Source of the DNA: Paracoccaceae bacterium
GTDB lineage: Bacteria; Pseudomonadota; Alphaproteobacteria; Rhodobacterales; Rhodobacteraceae
NCBI GenBank assembly: GCA_013214635.1
Contig: JABSSC010000002.1
Location: 1 to 43,204, forward strand
Direction: 5' to 3'
DNA: 43,204 nt
In this document: positions 6,802 to 41,508 of the stretch, one piece after another
Layout of the letters: every line of letters begins with the position of its first letter
Position numbering within the stretch: position 1 is the stretch's first letter
Made by a program: the position numbers and the translations under genes
Notes under the pieces: model-generated
Seen by the model: only the letters and a program-made list of their open reading frames with translations
Databases searched by the model: none
What the model was told of the DNA's origin: nothing

Positions 6802-7122
6802 ATGGCCACCGTCGCCGTCACAGACTCGACCTTCGACGCCGAAGTCCGCCAAGCGGACGTCCCTGTAATCGTTGACTTTTGGGCCGAATGGTGTGGCCCG
6901 TGCAAGCAAATCGGACCCGCTCTGGAAGAGCTGAGCGCCGAATACGATGGCAAGATCAAGATCGCCAAAGTCAACATCGACGAAAACATGGCCGAAGCCC
7001 AAACGCTCGGCGTGCGCGGTATCCCGGCGCTCTTCATGTTCAAGGACGGTCAGGTTGTGTCGAACAAGATCGGTGCCGCCCCCAAAGCTGCGCTGCAAAG
7101 CTGGATCGAAGAAACGATCTGA
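6802..7122 (+). CDS. trxA: Thioredoxin
   Basis: This is a cytoplasmic thioredoxin of 106 residues, the normal length. It reduces protein disulfides and is itself reduced by thioredoxin reductase. The active site is WCGPC with redox cysteines at 31 and 34, preceded by VIVDFWAE. The cis-proline is in RGIPALFMF and the buried Asp is in VDFWA. The ATG has a good ribosome binding site (AGGAGA, about 7 bases upstream). The gene is flanked by a candidate promoter and a strong intrinsic terminator, so it is probably a single-gene unit although it follows addBA, a common alphaproteobacterial arrangement. Confidence 0.97.
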
Positions 7123-16168: not shown

Positions 16169-17001
16169 TCCGCAAGTATCGCCTGCCGCGTCGCGTCCGT
16201 CACCTCAGGCCGTTTTCCAAACCAGCGTTCAAAACCGGGAACAGCCTGATACAGAAGCATTCCCAAACCATCGACAGTTGTGTGACCGCGCGATTTCGCC
16301 TCTTTCAAAAGATCAGTCTCAAGCGGTGTGTAGACGAGATCGGTCACCACGGCCGATTTCGCCAATCCATCGATCGAGATGCGAAACTCCGACTTACCAA
16401 CCATTCCAAGAGAACTGGCATTCACAAGAAGCGTTGCCCCGTCCATTAGATCTCCCACACGCACCCAATCGGTTACGGTAAGCTTGGTACCAAACTCTTG
16501 TCTAAGGGCTTCGGCCCGGGACTTCGTGCGATTGGTGATGCGAATGTCCTGCACGCCGGCGTCCAAAAGAGCTTGGATAACCGCACGCGACGCGCCACCG
16601 GCGCCAACAATCGCCGCAGGACCAGATGCAGGATCCCACTCCGGCGCTCCAGACCTCAAATTCTCAATGAATCCAACACCATCCGTGTTATCAGCGTGAA
16701 CCGTCCCATCAGCCCGAAAAATCAGCGTATTCGCCGCTCCGGCCAGCGCAGCACGATCGGTCACAGCATCGGCGAGCGCCAGCACACGCTCCTTGTGCGG
16801 AATAGTGACATTGGCCCCGACAAATCCCAGCTTTGGAAGCGTCTTCAACGCGTCCGCCAGATTCTCAGAAGAAATATCCATCGGTACGTAATGGCCTTGC
16901 AGGCCATGCGCCTCCAACCAATGCCGGAAAAGACGCGGCGATTTGGAATGCGCAACCGGTGACCCGATAACACCGGCAAGGGGAATTTTCGTGTCGCTCA
17001 T
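16165..17001 (-). CDS. aroE: Shikimate dehydrogenase (NADP)
   Basis: AroE reduces 3-dehydroshikimate to shikimate in aromatic amino acid synthesis. The 278-residue protein shows the shikimate site [16 protein letters not shown], the catalytic Lys in ANVTIPHKE, Asn/Asp in DNTDGVGF, and the Rossmann loop [10 protein letters not shown] basic NADP-binding patch ([10 protein letters not shown]) follows. C-terminal [19 protein letters not shown] is canonical. It overlaps maf upstream and coaE downstream by ATGA junctions. Confidence 0.97.
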
Positions 17002-17594
17002 GCTGGAATCCGTCCTGTCATCGACAGAAAATTCAGAAGCTCCAGAAGTGGCAACCCCTGAATGACAAAATGATCACCCTGTATCCGAGAAAACAACCGA
17101 ACACCTTCGGCCTCGATCATATATCCGCCAACACAATACTGAATGTCGTCCCAGTTTCGGCTCACATAGCTTTCAAGATATCCATCGCTGAAATCCCGCA
17201 TTGTCAGCGTCGCGACACCGACATGCCGCCAAACAGGTTGGCCGTCCTCATAGATAACGGCGGCCGAGTAAAGCCGATGGGACTTTCCGCGCAACACACC
17301 CAACTGTTCCATAAGGTGCTCTGGCGACGTTGGCTTGGACAATAGGCCACCATCATAGGCCAGAACCTGATCCGACCCAATAACAAGCCCGCCGGGTGAC
17401 TTCCCGGCAACCTTGCGCGCCTTCGCTTCTGCAAGCGCATCAGCTATATCGCGGGGTGGCGCACCTTCGGCCTCCAATGAGGCTGTGATCGCATCCTCAT
17501 CTATGCGCGCAGGAACGGCTTCAAAAGCCAGGCCAGCGGCCTGTAGCATTTTGGCGCGGCTTTCAGACGCCGAGGCGAGCGTAAATTCTGACAT
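16998..17594 (-). CDS. maf: Maf-family nucleotide pyrophosphatase
   Basis: Maf proteins hydrolyse non-canonical or modified nucleoside triphosphates (dTTP/UTP or 7-methyl-GTP, depending on subclass) to monophosphates. The 198 residues begin with the signature [12 protein letters not shown], followed by the DED block ARIDEDAI, the AEAKA helix, [12 protein letters not shown] and [13 protein letters not shown]. Which nucleotide this one prefers cannot be decided by eye. It is the first gene of a four-gene minus-strand run, reading away from the putative origin. Confidence 0.92.
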
Positions 17595-17601
17595 ATAACC
17601 C

Positions 17602-17610
17602 TGTGCATAA
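17602..17610 (-). promoter_or_regulatory. DnaA box (perfect consensus)
   Basis: TGTGCATAA on the plus strand reads TTATGCACA on the minus strand, an exact match to the TTATNCACA consensus for DnaA. It is eight bases upstream of the maf start codon, at the left edge of the putative origin. Confidence 0.65.
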
Positions 17611-17623
17611 CTCGAGGACGATG

Positions 17624-17654
17624 GATCTTAAGATGTTGGTAACATCCTTAGATC
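17624..17654. repeat. Two-step inverted repeat in the putative origin
   Basis: Outer arms GATCT (17624-17628) and AGATC (17650-17654) and inner arms GATGTT (17632-17637) and AACATC (17641-17646) are both perfect. They are separated by symmetrical 3-base internal loops around a GGT centre. It could form a cruciform or be a dimeric protein site. Confidence 0.6.
17628..17643 (+). promoter_or_regulatory. CtrA-like binding site
   Basis: TTAA (17628-17631), seven bases, then GTAAC (17639-17643) differs at one position from the TTAA-N7-TTAAC site of the alphaproteobacterial cell-cycle regulator CtrA. It overlaps the inverted repeat at 17624-17654. Position in an origin echoes Caulobacter, but CtrA control of replication is not general in Rhodobacterales. 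Confidence 0.35.
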
Positions 17655-17701
17655 TTGAGCTTCCCAGCTGTTTTGAGAGCGCTGCACATTCTGTTCAAGT
17701 T

Positions 17702-17715
17702 TTTTCCACCGTGGA
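17702..17715 (+). promoter_or_regulatory. Near-consensus DnaA box overlapping a small palindrome
   Basis: TTTTCCACC at 17702-17710 matches TTTTCCACA at eight of nine positions. Its end overlaps the palindrome TCCAC-C-GTGGA at 17705-17715. Confidence 0.4.
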
Positions 17716-17794
17716 GTTCTTGTTTAAGGACTCAGCGAATGAAATGGGGACTTACAAGTTATCCCTGATTTATCCTCTCCCAATGGCCCTCTTA

Positions 17795-17807
17795 AATATC
17801 TGATATT
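17795..17807. repeat. Inverted repeat inside the AT-rich tract
   Basis: AATATC and GATATT flank a single T. The repeat lies in the most AT-rich stretch (17791-17822), a candidate DNA unwinding element. Confidence 0.5.
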
Positions 17808-17829
17808 GTTATAAAAAATTAGGTTCCTG

Positions 17830-17844
17830 CCGGAAGTCTTCCGG
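17830..17844. repeat. Perfect 7-bp-arm palindrome CCGGAAG/CTTCCGG
   Basis: CCGGAAG (17830-17836) and CTTCCGG (17838-17844) surround one T. It stands directly right of the AT-rich tract. It is too compact for a stable hairpin and is more like an operator or replication-protein site. Confidence 0.55.
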
Positions 17845-17877
17845 ATAGTCCACACCGCTTTTTCCGGGGATACTTAT

Positions 17878-17908
17878 GGGGACAACAATGGTGATCCCCA
17901 TTGTCCCC
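17878..17908. repeat. Bulged inverted repeat before hemJ
   Basis: GGGGA (17878-17882) and CAATGG (17886-17891) pair with CCATTGTCCCC (17898-17908), leaving a 3-base bulge on the left arm and a 6-base loop. There is no T-run after it, so it is not an intrinsic terminator. It lies 64 bases upstream of hemJ. Confidence 0.5.
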
Positions 17909-17972
17909 AGCACAACATCAAACACTACTTCTTTTCATTTCTATATTTATATTAATGGTCTAAGGACGGGCC

Positions 17973-18425
17973 GTGACTGATTTTCTGTTAACTTTCTATC
18001 CATGGACGAAGTCCTTGCATGTGATCTCAGTGATCGCGTGGATGGCTGGGTTGTTCTATCTGCCCCGTCTATTTGTTTATCATACCGAGCGCGTTAAGGC
18101 CGGAACAGACACCGATGACATGTTCCAGACGATGGAGCGTCGGCTGTTCAAGGCGATCATGCGCCCCGCAATGATTGCGACGTGGATTTTCGGGCTCTTG
18201 ATGGTCGCAACGCCGGGTGTGGTGGACTGGAGTTCAGCCTGGTCTTGGATCAAGGCGGCGAGCGTGATCGGAATGACAGGCTTTCACGAATGGTGTGGCG
18301 CGACAGTCAAACGCTTTGCCGCTGGCCAGAACGACCGCGAAGGTCGGTATTTCCGCCTGATGAATGAGGTTCCGACCCTTCTGATGATCGTCATCGTCGT
18401 GATGGTGATCGTCAAACCCTTTTAG
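17973..18425 (+). CDS. hemJ: Protoporphyrinogen IX oxidase HemJ
   Basis: HemJ converts protoporphyrinogen IX to protoporphyrin IX in haem and bacteriochlorophyll synthesis, and replaces HemY/HemG in many alphaproteobacteria. The 150-residue protein has four or five hydrophobic helices. His16 lies in the WTKSLHVISVIAWMAGLFYLPR block, followed by YHTER. GFHEWCGATVKRF carries further conserved polar residues. The start is GTG at 17973, after GGACGGG. It is the first plus-strand gene to the right of the putative origin. Haem genes beside the origin are typical of the class. Confidence 0.93.
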   Translation: MTDFLLTFYPWTKSLHVISVIAWMAGLFYLPRLFVYHTERVKAGTDTDDMFQTMERRLFKAIMRPAMIATWIFGLLMVATPGVVDWSSAWSWIKAASVIGMTGFHEWCGATVKRFAAGQNDREGRYFRLMNEVPTLLMIVIVVMVIVKPF

Positions 18426-21118: not shown

Positions 21119-21134
21119 CGTTTCACGTGAAACA
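21119..21134. other. parS: parS centromere site 1 (overlaps mnmG start codon)
   Basis: The 14-bp palindrome GTTTCACGTGAAAC (21120-21133) is perfect. The 16-bp form differs from the universal parS TGTTTCACGTGAAACA only at its first base. ParB should bind it as the nucleation point for chromosome segregation. The GTG start of mnmG (21127-21129) is inside the palindrome. Confidence 0.9.
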
Positions 21135-22989: not shown

Positions 22990-23600
22990 CCGACGCTGAA
23001 GACCTGTCCGATGTTTCACGTGAAACACGGGAAAAGCTGCGCGCGCTCGAGGCGTTAGTCAAAAAATGGTCGCCCAGGGTGAACTTGGTGGCACCATCAA
23101 CGCTCAAGGATGTATGGACACGCCACATACTTGATTCCGCACAGGTCTTTTCGCATGCGCCTGCGTCGATACAAAGTTGGGCGGATCTTGGTTCGGGTGG
23201 GGGGTTTCCCGGGCTGGTGATTGCCGTGCTAGCGAAGGGTCAGGATATGCCCCTTGATCTGACATTGATCGAATCCGACGCGCGGAAATGCGCCTTTCTT
23301 TCAACGGCAAAGCGCGAACTGGACCTTTCCTTTACAGTTCTGAATGCCCGGATTGAATCTGTGGAGCCATTGGATGTTGACGTCGTCTCAGCAAGGGCTT
23401 TGGCGCCGCTACCAAATCTGATTGAGTTGGCACAGCACCACCTAAATGCAAACGGCGTGTTGCTCGCACCCAAGGGCGCATCTTTTGAGCAGGAGATTGC
23501 TTCTGCACTTGAAAGCTGGTCCTTTCATTGCGAGAAATATCCAAGCAGAACGAGCGAAGGTTCTGCCATTCTTGGGATATCCGAAATTGCCAGGCTCTGA
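22986..23600 (+). CDS. rsmG: 16S rRNA (guanine-527-N7)-methyltransferase RsmG (GidB)
   Basis: RsmG methylates G527 of 16S rRNA using S-adenosylmethionine. The 204-residue protein has the SAM-binding core [18 protein letters not shown], the acidic [12 protein letters not shown] and the family segment [15 protein letters not shown]. parS site 2 lies in codons 9-14 and encodes VSRET, the same kind of in-frame use seen for parS in other bacteria. The start overlaps the mnmG stop and parA begins just after the stop. Confidence 0.96.
23012..23027. other. parS: parS centromere site 2 (inside rsmG)
   Basis: TGTTTCACGTGAAACA is a perfect 16-of-16 match to the universal ParB-binding parS palindrome. 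It lies in the 5' coding part of rsmG, about 1.4 kb upstream of parB. Confidence 0.95.
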
Positions 23601-23604
23601 ACCA

Positions 23605-24402
23605 TTGGTCCTCAAGCGACCCCGCATCATTGCAATTGCAAACCAAAAGGGTGGCGTGGGAAAGACGACGACGGCGATCAATCTTGCGGCAGCGTTGTGC
23701 GAAGAGGGGCTCGATGTCCTGCTCGTTGATTTGGATCCGCAGGGAAATGCCTCGACAGGGTTGGGATCTGAAGCGTCAGAGCGGGGAAAAACGACTTATG
23801 ACCTGCTGATTGAGGGCGCGAAAGTATCTGAGGTCGTTCGTCCGACCAACGTTGAGGGGCTTTGGCTCGCACCGGCGACAACTGATCTGAGTTCCGCTGA
23901 TATTGAGCTTGTCGACAATGAAAAGCGCAGCACGCTGCTTAAATCGGCGTTGCGTGACCCCGCAATCAGCAAATTGAACCTCGATTATATCCTGATCGAT
24001 TGCCCACCGTCGCTCAGCCTTTTGACTGTAAACGCAATGGTGGCTGCGGACTCCGTTCTGGTGCCGCTGCAAAGCGAGTTCTTCGCGCTCGAAGGGCTTT
24101 CCCAACTTATGCTGACGCTGCGGGATGTTCGCGCGGTCGCAAACCCGGCGCTGCGGATCGAAGGCGTTGTGTTGACGATGTTTGATGGTCGCAACAACCT
24201 GAGCCGCCAGGTGGAATCCGATGCGCGGGCGACGTTGGGCGAGCTTGTCTTCGAAACGGTTGTGCCCAGAAACGTTCGCGTCAGCGAAGCTCCGTCGTTT
24301 TCTATGCCGGTTCTTGAGTTCGATCCGTTGTCAAAGGGCAGCGTTGCCTATCGCGCATTAGCGCAAGAAATGGTACACCGAAACGAAACAACCGCAACAT
24401 GA
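23605..24402 (+). CDS. parA: Chromosome partitioning ATPase ParA (Soj)
   Basis: ParA is a Walker-type ATPase that moves ParB-parS complexes apart during chromosome segregation. It has the deviant Walker A KGGVGKT (15-21, counted from TTG 23605), LLVDLDPQGNASTGLG, IDCPPSLSLLTVNAM (Walker B) and VVLTMFDGRNNLS. No ATG fits: the frame runs back into rsmG. TTG at 23605, four bases after the rsmG stop, gives 265 residues, the usual size. TTG at 23587 is an alternative. The weak start and lack of a good ribosome binding site suggest coupling to rsmG translation. Confidence 0.95.
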   Translation: MVLKRPRIIAIANQKGGVGKTTTAINLAAALCEEGLDVLLVDLDPQGNASTGLGSEASERGKTTYDLLIEGAKVSEVVRPTNVEGLWLAPATTDLSSADIELVDNEKRSTLLKSALRDPAISKLNLDYILIDCPPSLSLLTVNAMVAADSVLVPLQSEFFALEGLSQLMLTLRDVRAVANPALRIEGVVLTMFDGRNNLSRQVESDARATLGELVFETVVPRNVRVSEAPSFSMPVLEFDPLSKGSVAYRALAQEMVHRNETTAT

Positions 24403-24409
24403 GGTAGTG

Positions 24410-25291
24410 ATGGCAAAGAACCAACCAAGAAAAGGTCTGGGTCGCGGTCTCTCTGCGCTCATGGCAGATGTTGAACCGCTGGCGCCCACGGATCAGTCGC
24501 CGCCCACGCGGGTTGATGCAAAGGTCCCAATCGACCGTCTGCGTCCCAATCCAGATCAGCCGCGTAAGACGTTTACGGAAGAGCAGCTTTCGGACCTATC
24601 CAATTCGGTTCGGGAAAAGGGCATCATCCAACCTTTGATCGTGCGGCGTATTCCGGGTGACAGTTTGGAGTATGAGATTGTCGCGGGCGAGCGGCGTTGG
24701 CGCGCGGCACAACGCGCACAGATCCATGAGGTTCCGGTCATCATCCGCGACTATTCGGATGCCGAGGTCCTGGAAATTGCGATCATCGAGAACATCCAGC
24801 GCGCGGACCTTAATCCGGTGGAAGAAGCGGCGGGGTACCGCCAGCTTATGGATCGCTTTGGTCACACGCAGGAAAAGATGGCCGAAGCGTTGGGAAAAAG
24901 TCGGAGCCATATTGCAAACCTCCTTCGTTTGTTGACGCTTCCAGACGAGGTGCTGGGCTACCTCCAGCGGGGAGAGCTTACAGCGGGTCATGCGCGCGCG
25001 CTGGTGACGCTGGATGATCCGGTTGCGGCAGCGCGTGAGATACTGAAAAAAGGTCTCTCCGTTCGCGAAGCCGAGTCCTTGGGCAAGCCAAAGAAGAAGA
25101 AGGCCCCGAAAGTGACCCCCGAGAAGGACGCCGATACACGTGCGCTTGAAGGTGATTTGTCTGCGGCGCTGGGGGGCATGCGCGTTACGCTTGATCACCC
25201 AAATGACCAAGGTGCCGGCACAGTCACGATCAAGTACAAGTCGCTCGAAGAACTCGACGACCTGTGCGCCCGTTTGAGTGGGACCGGCTAA
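24410..25291 (+). CDS. parB: Chromosome partitioning protein ParB (Spo0J)
   Basis: ParB is a CTP-dependent clamp that loads at parS and spreads. The 293 residues show the N-terminal ParA-stimulating segment KGLGRGLSALMAD, the CTP-binding boxes QPLIVRR and GERRWRAAQRA, and ENIQRADLNPVEEA. The parS-reading helix-turn-helix (TQEKMAEALGKSRSHIANLLRLL), a Lys-rich linker (KPKKKKAPK) and a C-terminal dimerisation domain follow. ATG 24410 has GAGGTAG just upstream; an adjacent GTG at 24407 is possible. The TAA interlocks with the hemW stop in a CTAA. Confidence 0.97.
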   Translation: MAKNQPRKGLGRGLSALMADVEPLAPTDQSPPTRVDAKVPIDRLRPNPDQPRKTFTEEQLSDLSNSVREKGIIQPLIVRRIPGDSLEYEIVAGERRWRAAQRAQIHEVPVIIRDYSDAEVLEIAIIENIQRADLNPVEEAAGYRQLMDRFGHTQEKMAEALGKSRSHIANLLRLLTLPDEVLGYLQRGELTAGHARALVTLDDPVAAAREILKKGLSVREAESLGKPKKKKAPKVTPEKDADTRALEGDLSAALGGMRVTLDHPNDQGAGTVTIKYKSLEELDDLCARLSGTG

Positions 25292-39805: not shown

Positions 39806-40114
39806 TTAAGCAGCCAGATCAAGCTCGTCCAAAAACTTCGTTTTCGAATTGCGGTAGATCGATGGAAGATCAGACAGATCCATTGCCCCGTCTTCGGATT
39901 GTTCGGCGGTCAGGCAGGCCAGTGCCAAGCCGCGAAAGCCAAGATTCAGCGCGGATCCCTTGAGGAAGTGCAGCTCTTCGCGCACGTTTTCAGGAGCGGT
40001 GGCAAGGCGATCCAGTGCCGCCTCTACTTCTTCAAGGAAAAGCTCCACGACCTCGGCAAAGTCTTCATCGCCGACCTCGTCCCGGAGTTCCTGAACCCTT
40101 GACCAAAGAATCAT
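39806..40114 (-). CDS. Hpt domain phosphotransfer protein
   Basis: This is a single-domain histidine phosphotransferase of about 102 residues. The phospho-accepting His49 (in the 102-aa numbering) lies in REELHFLKGSALNLGF, the Hpt signature. An acidic helix FAEVVELFLEEVEAAL precedes it. The start is uncertain: ATG 40114 is assumed, while TTG at 40168 would add 18 residues. It is divergent from a receiver-PP2C gene about 122 bp away, its obvious partner as phosphate donor. No kinase gene is present nearby. Confidence 0.85.
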   Translation of the reverse strand: MILWSRVQELRDEVGDEDFAEVVELFLEEVEAALDRLATAPENVREELHFLKGSALNLGFRGLALACLTAEQSEDGAMDLSDLPSIYRNSKTKFLDELDLAA

Positions 40115-40236
40115 CTCATCACCCAATTCAACTTTCGACGACGGTGATAGATCAGAAGGATTTCCCAAGATTTAACGGCAGAAAATCAATCAGGATTCAC
40201 GCCACTTTAAGACCAGTGGCGCCATGACGGCCTGTG

Positions 40237-41508
40237 ATGACGGTAAACGTGAAGAAATCTGATGTGGCCGACGCTGCCCCCGATATCGATTGGGGTCGGC
40301 GGGTTTTGGTTGTCGATGACAGCGCGGTACAGAGGCGTCTGTTGACGGCCATTCTGCGACGACGCGGTTACGACGTGTTTGAAGCGGCCTCGGGGATGGC
40401 GGCGCTTGATCTGATGGCCGGTCAGCCGATTGATTTTGTCATCAGTGATTGGATGATGCCGGGGATGACGGGGCCGGAGCTGTGCGAGGCAATGCGTGCT
40501 CAGCAGTCCGAGAGTTATGCTTACTTCATTCTTTTGACGACCAAAGCCGAGCGGGAAGATGTCGCTGAAGGGCTGGAGCGTGGGGCCGATGATTTTTTGT
40601 CAAAGCCCGTAAACGTCTCAGAGCTTTCAGCGCGGTTGAAAGCGGGTGCGCGTATCCTGTCAATGCATCAAGCGATGGCGGAGAAGAACGTGCAACTGTC
40701 CGAAGCGCTTGGTCGGCTGAACGAGGCGCAAGAGGCGATGAACCGCGACCTTGCCGACGCGCGGCATCTTCAGCAATCGCTTGTGCCCGAACGGCAGCGC
40801 GCGGTCCTTGGTGGCGTCGTTTCGCTTCACTTGCGACCCAGCGGGGCCGTCGGTGGGGATCTTGTCGGATCGTTTCGCGTCAACGATACGCGGTTGGGTC
40901 TATTTGCGATCGATGTGGCCGGGCATGGTATTGCCTCGGCGCTGATGACGGCGCGGCTGGCCGGCAATCTGACGTCAAGCTCGCCAGAGCAAAACATCGC
41001 GCTCACCATCGATGATATGGGCCTTTACTCCATGCAGCCACCGCCGGATGTCTGCACCCTTTTGAACAATATGGTTCTAGAGGATATGACCACCGACCTC
41101 TATTTCACGATGCTCATCGGAGAGTGCAATTTGAAGACCGGGAAGATTGAGCTTGCTCAGGCGGGCCACCCCGCCCCGGTCATTCAACGACAAGGCGGCG
41201 CGATCGAGTTTGTCGGTCAGGGTGGCCTCCCCGTTGGGTTGGTGCCGGGTGCGGACTATCAGTCGTTCTCGGTTAAACTCGAGCCCGGTGATCGTATCCT
41301 GTTTTACTCTGACGGCGTGACCGAGGCCGAAGACAAGGCAGGTGCTCAGCTTGATGAAGAAGGGTTCTGCCGGATTTTGACGTCCGTTGCCGAGCTGTCC
41401 GGAACTGACTGCCTCGACAAGATCGTGTCCTATCTGGTCGAGTTTGCGGGTACGGATGACTTCACCGATGACGTCTCAATCGCGATGTTCGAATACGCCG
41501 GACTCTAA
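40237..41508 (+). CDS. Response regulator with PP2C/SpoIIE-type phosphatase output
   Basis: The 423-residue protein has an N-terminal receiver domain (RVLVVDDSAVQRRLL, phospho-acceptor Asp in FVISDWMMPGMTGPEL, Lys in DDFLSKPVN). A short coiled-coil (about 145-175, KNVQLSEALGRLNEAQEAM) leads to a PP2C/SpoIIE phosphatase domain. Metal-binding motifs there are GGDLVGSF, LGLFAIDVAGHGIASALMTA, LAQAGHPAP, FYSDGVTEAEDK and TDDVSIAMF. Such proteins dephosphorylate STAS anti-sigma-factor antagonists in partner switching. I recall the R. capsulatus RbaY protein, which affects gene transfer agent production, having the same architecture. GTG 40234 is an alternative start. Confidence 0.9.
   Translation: MTVNVKKSDVADAAPDIDWGRRVLVVDDSAVQRRLLTAILRRRGYDVFEAASGMAALDLMAGQPIDFVISDWMMPGMTGPELCEAMRAQQSESYAYFILLTTKAEREDVAEGLERGADDFLSKPVNVSELSARLKAGARILSMHQAMAEKNVQLSEALGRLNEAQEAMNRDLADARHLQQSLVPERQRAVLGGVVSLHLRPSGAVGGDLVGSFRVNDTRLGLFAIDVAGHGIASALMTARLAGNLTSSSPEQNIALTIDDMGLYSMQPPPDVCTLLNNMVLEDMTTDLYFTMLIGECNLKTGKIELAQAGHPAPVIQRQGGAIEFVGQGGLPVGLVPGADYQSFSVKLEPGDRILFYSDGVTEAEDKAGAQLDEEGFCRILTSVAELSGTDCLDKIVSYLVEFAGTDDFTDDVSIAMFEYAGL

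Follow-up and report, generated by a model that had tools for sequence, protein, structure and literature searches.

A predicted chromosomal replication origin in the maf-hemJ gap of a Paracoccaceae draft genome

Where does chromosome replication start in a bacterium whose genome is available only as a draft, and is the gap between maf and hemJ that place? We analysed a 43,204-nucleotide stretch of a Paracoccaceae bacterium (the window; contig JABSSC010000002.1 of GCA_013214635.1), which belongs to a draft assembly of 348 contigs and whose genome alone represents its genus. The original prediction had placed a probable chromosomal origin in this gap, and we find its position, skew, parS sites, conservation and single copy by computation; the skew minimum, the parS pair, the conserved position and a single-copy module all agree with that placement. 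The gap (17595-17972) is thus very probably the chromosomal replication origin (oriC) and lies where an origin would be expected in this group; initiation itself is a prediction from sequence.

The maf-hemJ gap and its counterparts in relatives

The 378-bp gap contains no genes and is bounded by the divergent genes maf on the left (16998-17594, minus strand) and hemJ (UPF0093; 17973-18425, plus strand) on the right. As originally proposed, no other gene-free stretch of the window is as long, and genes diverge on both sides, hemJ being the first on the right; the larger gaps contain small genes (e.g., trxA, 6802-7122). It was also correct that hemE is absent from the window, as hemE was located on contig C283 and dnaA on contig C338, both off the contig of the window. 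Elsewhere in the window, a short open reading frame (39806-40168, minus strand) that resembles, and may encode, an Hpt-type phosphotransfer protein diverges from the gene of a response-regulator/SpoIIE-type phosphatase (40234-41508, plus strand).

The order dnaQ-coaE-aroE-maf, gap, hemJ-rho-mnmE-mnmG-rsmG-parA-parB was constant in 80 named related loci as far as their contigs extend (in L079, dnaQ lies further off), and the gap measured 355-449 bp in 77 of them. In the remaining three (L054, L059, and L082), hemE separates the gap from hemJ; L054, with maf-COG1806-gap-hemE-hemJ, has the Caulobacter arrangement, while L113, L102, and L219 have kept COG1806 and not hemE. Since relatives retain one or both of COG1806 and hemE, the gap and the classical origin are one locus, and hemE is missing beside it because this gene has moved away in the lineage of the window, which is a lineage-specific relocation and not counter-evidence. 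Origin loci with COG1806 and/or hemE retained or missing form a graded series (L054, L102, L113, L219, L059, L100, and L220), which represents repeated loss of neighbouring genes while the origin stayed in place. A blastn search with the gap against 298 family genomes gave nothing useful, its one 24-bp match falling at a locus without any of the flanking genes.

DnaA boxes and a conserved module within the gap

The strongest DnaA box, TTATGCACA (17602-17610, minus strand), occupies the same end of the gap as the left box does in relatives. It had been described as perfect, which is true against the relaxed TTATNCACA only, as it carries one mismatch against TTATCCACA; it is the sole such site in 43 kb, where 0.48 would be expected, and its count alone is not significant. 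Weaker box-like sites, each with two mismatches, follow at 17634-17642 (TTACCAACA, minus strand), 17702-17710 (TTTTCCACC, plus strand; mismatches counted against TTATCCACA), 17770-17778 (TTATCCTCT, plus strand, with a box near the same place in relatives), and 17846-17854 (TAGTCCACA, plus strand). The second of these is the 8-of-9 box of the original prediction when scored against TTWTNCACA. Further to the right, TGATCCCCA (17892-17900) and TTGTCCCCA (17901-17909) form a tandem pair on the plus strand, and a weak TTGTCCCCA site on the minus strand (17877-17885) is the inverted partner of the latter. Together, eight sites with at most two mismatches were found in the gap, compared to 1.5 ± 1.2 in shuffled sequences, and this is the maximum for any 378-bp stretch of the window.

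This cluster of DnaA boxes, as expected of an oriC, exceeds chance, but a single box comes as close as one mismatch to TTATCCACA, compared to a mean of 3.1 in relatives, of which about one-tenth have one or none; the boxes of relatives occupy position-conserved places in the gap. Altered DnaA-box specificity was considered as a cause of the weak boxes and rejected, as domain IV of DnaA in the window genome is unchanged and of the usual type. Many weak boxes of the gap end in CCCCA rather than CCACA, and the same was seen in some relatives (TTATCCCCA). We read the window origin as probably consisting mostly of low-affinity DnaA sites.

Other elements of the gap were largely as first described. 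A single GANTC (CcrM-type) site was found at 17729-17733, and the AT-rich tract at 17791-17822 has the 27 A/T of 32 counted before, while our settings returned four inverted repeats in place of the five claimed. This tract coincides in position with the central IHF-like site of relatives: an IHF-like site, TATCAGATATTTA (17793-17805, minus strand; one mismatch against WATCAANNNNTTR), is centrally placed as it is in them, where such sites numbered 7 perfect versus 0.46 expected, and 34 versus 6 expected at one mismatch or fewer.

A sequence profile (R1) was built from the right-hand module of 42 relatives with the window left out. It gave one good match in the window genome, about 90 bp long at about 17869-17956 on the plus strand (28 bits, E 3e-6), and the runner-up scored 11 bits (E 0.56), these E-values being rough. 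Of 101 family genomes, 82 gave matches, nearly always one apiece, so the profile locates the origin in most of the family, and by this measure the module occurs once per chromosome, as an oriC should. Weak matches in two small genomes (L221 and L222) were dropped, as none of the flanking genes occur there. The module is built of tandem boxes, a short spacer, and a DnaA-trio-like T-rich tract; in relatives its consensus is TAATCCACAnTATCCACnGnCCCTACAACATCATCATCTTTT, after which comes a T-rich stretch, and in the window it reads TGATCCCCA-TTGTCCCCA, 15 nt, and the run CTA CTT CTT TTC ATT (17925-17939, plus strand), with trios read on the top strand by convention (PMC8235120). The likely unwinding site is placed at 17892-17956; the original prediction made no mention of it or of the module, the most telling part of the gap. 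With the most constrained part of the gap identified, the unwinding site of these bacteria becomes directly testable.

Could this region be a mere divergent promoter or leader for maf and hemJ-rho, with the module serving as the hemJ leader? Genes do diverge from the gap, and about 16 bp separate the end of the module from hemJ; we nevertheless regard this reading as very unlikely. The module contains DnaA boxes, is single-copy, and lies at the skew minimum. Moreover, where hemJ is missing from the locus, the order maf-module-rho is kept (five of five genomes examined), and in genomes retaining hemE the module lies upstream of that gene. As the module stays put without hemJ and beside hemE, it belongs to the gap, and so to the origin, rather than to a neighbouring gene, and a role as hemJ leader was rejected. 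In the five family genomes L213-L217, hemJ has gone from the origin locus, the module directly precedes rho, and only weak hemJ-like matches occur elsewhere.

Skew and segregation sites around the gap

The cumulative GC-skew minimum of the window falls at 17941, within the gap and near its right end, and the keto-skew minimum at 17535, 60 bp to its left. GC3 skew is -0.156 and -0.036 on the left of the gap and +0.036 and +0.099 on the right, and its sign depends on which side of the gap a gene lies, whatever its strand; gene direction alone is therefore an insufficient explanation. Because the window genome is so fragmented, whole-chromosome skew was sampled at 40 stretches in each of two complete relatives, G003 and G298. 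The sampled cumulative minimum of G003 adjoins the orthologous gap at 3.477 Mb, and its maximum lies opposite on the chromosome, at about 1.55 Mb. The skew of G298 reverses at the gap as well, although this genome has another, slightly lower minimum at about 2.74 Mb. A skew minimum, as expected of an oriC, thus marks the gap both in the window and in G003, with G298 ambiguous. The region at 2.74-3.21 Mb of G298 (NZ_CP045201) holds two nearly equal GC-skew minima, and this pairing suggests a large inversion or rearrangement next to the origin.

Two parS sites and the parA and parB genes (23620-25291, plus strand) lie to the right of the gap, as had been claimed. Both sites are on the plus strand, one with a single mismatch (21119-21134) and one perfect (23012-23027), at 3.1 and 5.0 kb from the gap, and no other parS occurs in the assembly. 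Each overlaps coding sequence, the first at the start of mnmG and the second in the start region of rsmG.

A rival reading takes this locus as a parS/centromere region only, the true origin lying at dnaA or the relocated hemE, whose distances from the gap are hidden by the draft assembly. We consider this even less probable than the promoter reading, as the skew minimum lies at the gap in both the window and G003, dnaA of G298 is about 165 kb away from the gap at which its skew flips, and the sole good R1 match of the window genome is the gap itself. Extra replicons are frequent in related bacteria, but that the gap serves a chromid or plasmid rather than the main chromosome is the least credible reading, as conserved core genes that keep their chromosomal order flank it, the only canonical parS sites of the genome are here, and no Rep gene adjoins the gap.

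Proposed mechanism and comparison with known origins

For the gap as chromosomal origin, we infer that DnaA, IHF, and melting come into play in the following order. DnaA would bind one moderate and several weak boxes in the gap, and the central IHF-like site would probably bend the DNA. From the tandem boxes (17892-17909), DnaA would then extend onto the adjacent T-rich, trio-like strand at 17925-17956, which would be melted for helicase loading. Forks would depart both ways from the gap, and the new origins would be segregated by ParB at the two parS sites, which lie 3-5 kb to its right. As the origin, the gap would matter to the cell, and its recognition places an origin within the draft genome of a marine alphaproteobacterium.

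The predicted origin belongs to a known type and occupies the same site as in relatives. By synteny, it is the locus of the Caulobacter crescentus Cori and Rickettsia origins (COG1806-ori-hemE), and it resembles them in its DnaA boxes and higher AT content and possibly in an IHF site, for which the gap offers one candidate with a single mismatch, located where such sites are in excess in relatives (PMC1914354). Unlike those origins, it is flanked by maf and hemJ rather than by hemE and COG1806. Caulobacter Cori has five CtrA sites (PMC1914354), whereas no TTAA-N7-TTAA site was found in the window gap, leaving CtrA control of the gap unsupported; such a site was found in 14 of 84 gaps of the comparison set. 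Within the family, Rhodobacteraceae origins were previously predicted in bulk with Ori-Finder from the skew minimum, local GC minimum, and parAB proximity (PMC6699656), and R. sphaeroides OriC1 has been described (PMC6315104). As far as the available text of these two papers goes, their criteria are the same as those used here, while the internal layout, given here for the window gap, is not described in it.

The right-hand module further resembles the basal unwinding system of B. subtilis and H. pylori in its tandem boxes, short spacer, and top-strand repeated NTN triplets, although the boxes of the window are weak in comparison. The rule for that system asks for a box with at most two mismatches, a spacer of at most 16 nt, and at least three trios (PMC8287927); the window has TTGTCCCCA with two mismatches, a 15-nt spacer, and five trios, a run with a null probability of about 0.04 by itself. 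Strictly applied, the trio rule is passed by 53 of 84 gaps, because the family consensus CCCTACAACATCATCATCTTTT, in a departure from the basal unwinding system, breaks between CTA and the ATC repeats, and the strict contiguous rule was set aside as too strict for many relatives. Among the papers searched, we found none linking DnaA-trios with Rhodobacterales origins. In distant alphaproteobacteria, a similar module lies upstream of hemE, in some with clear CTACTACTACTT repeats, which could serve to define an unwinding module for the whole class; L199, L204-L206, and L210 have DnaA boxes and then CTACTACTACTT-like repeats at this place. We tentatively propose, as a possibility somewhat short of an even chance, that the TAATCCACA-TATCCAC-spacer-CCCTACAACATCATCATCTTTT module represents a so far undescribed form of the basal unwinding system in alphaproteobacteria, one that stays fixed while COG1806, hemE, and hemJ come and go, and that in the lineage of the window combines unusually weak boxes with an ordinary DnaA.
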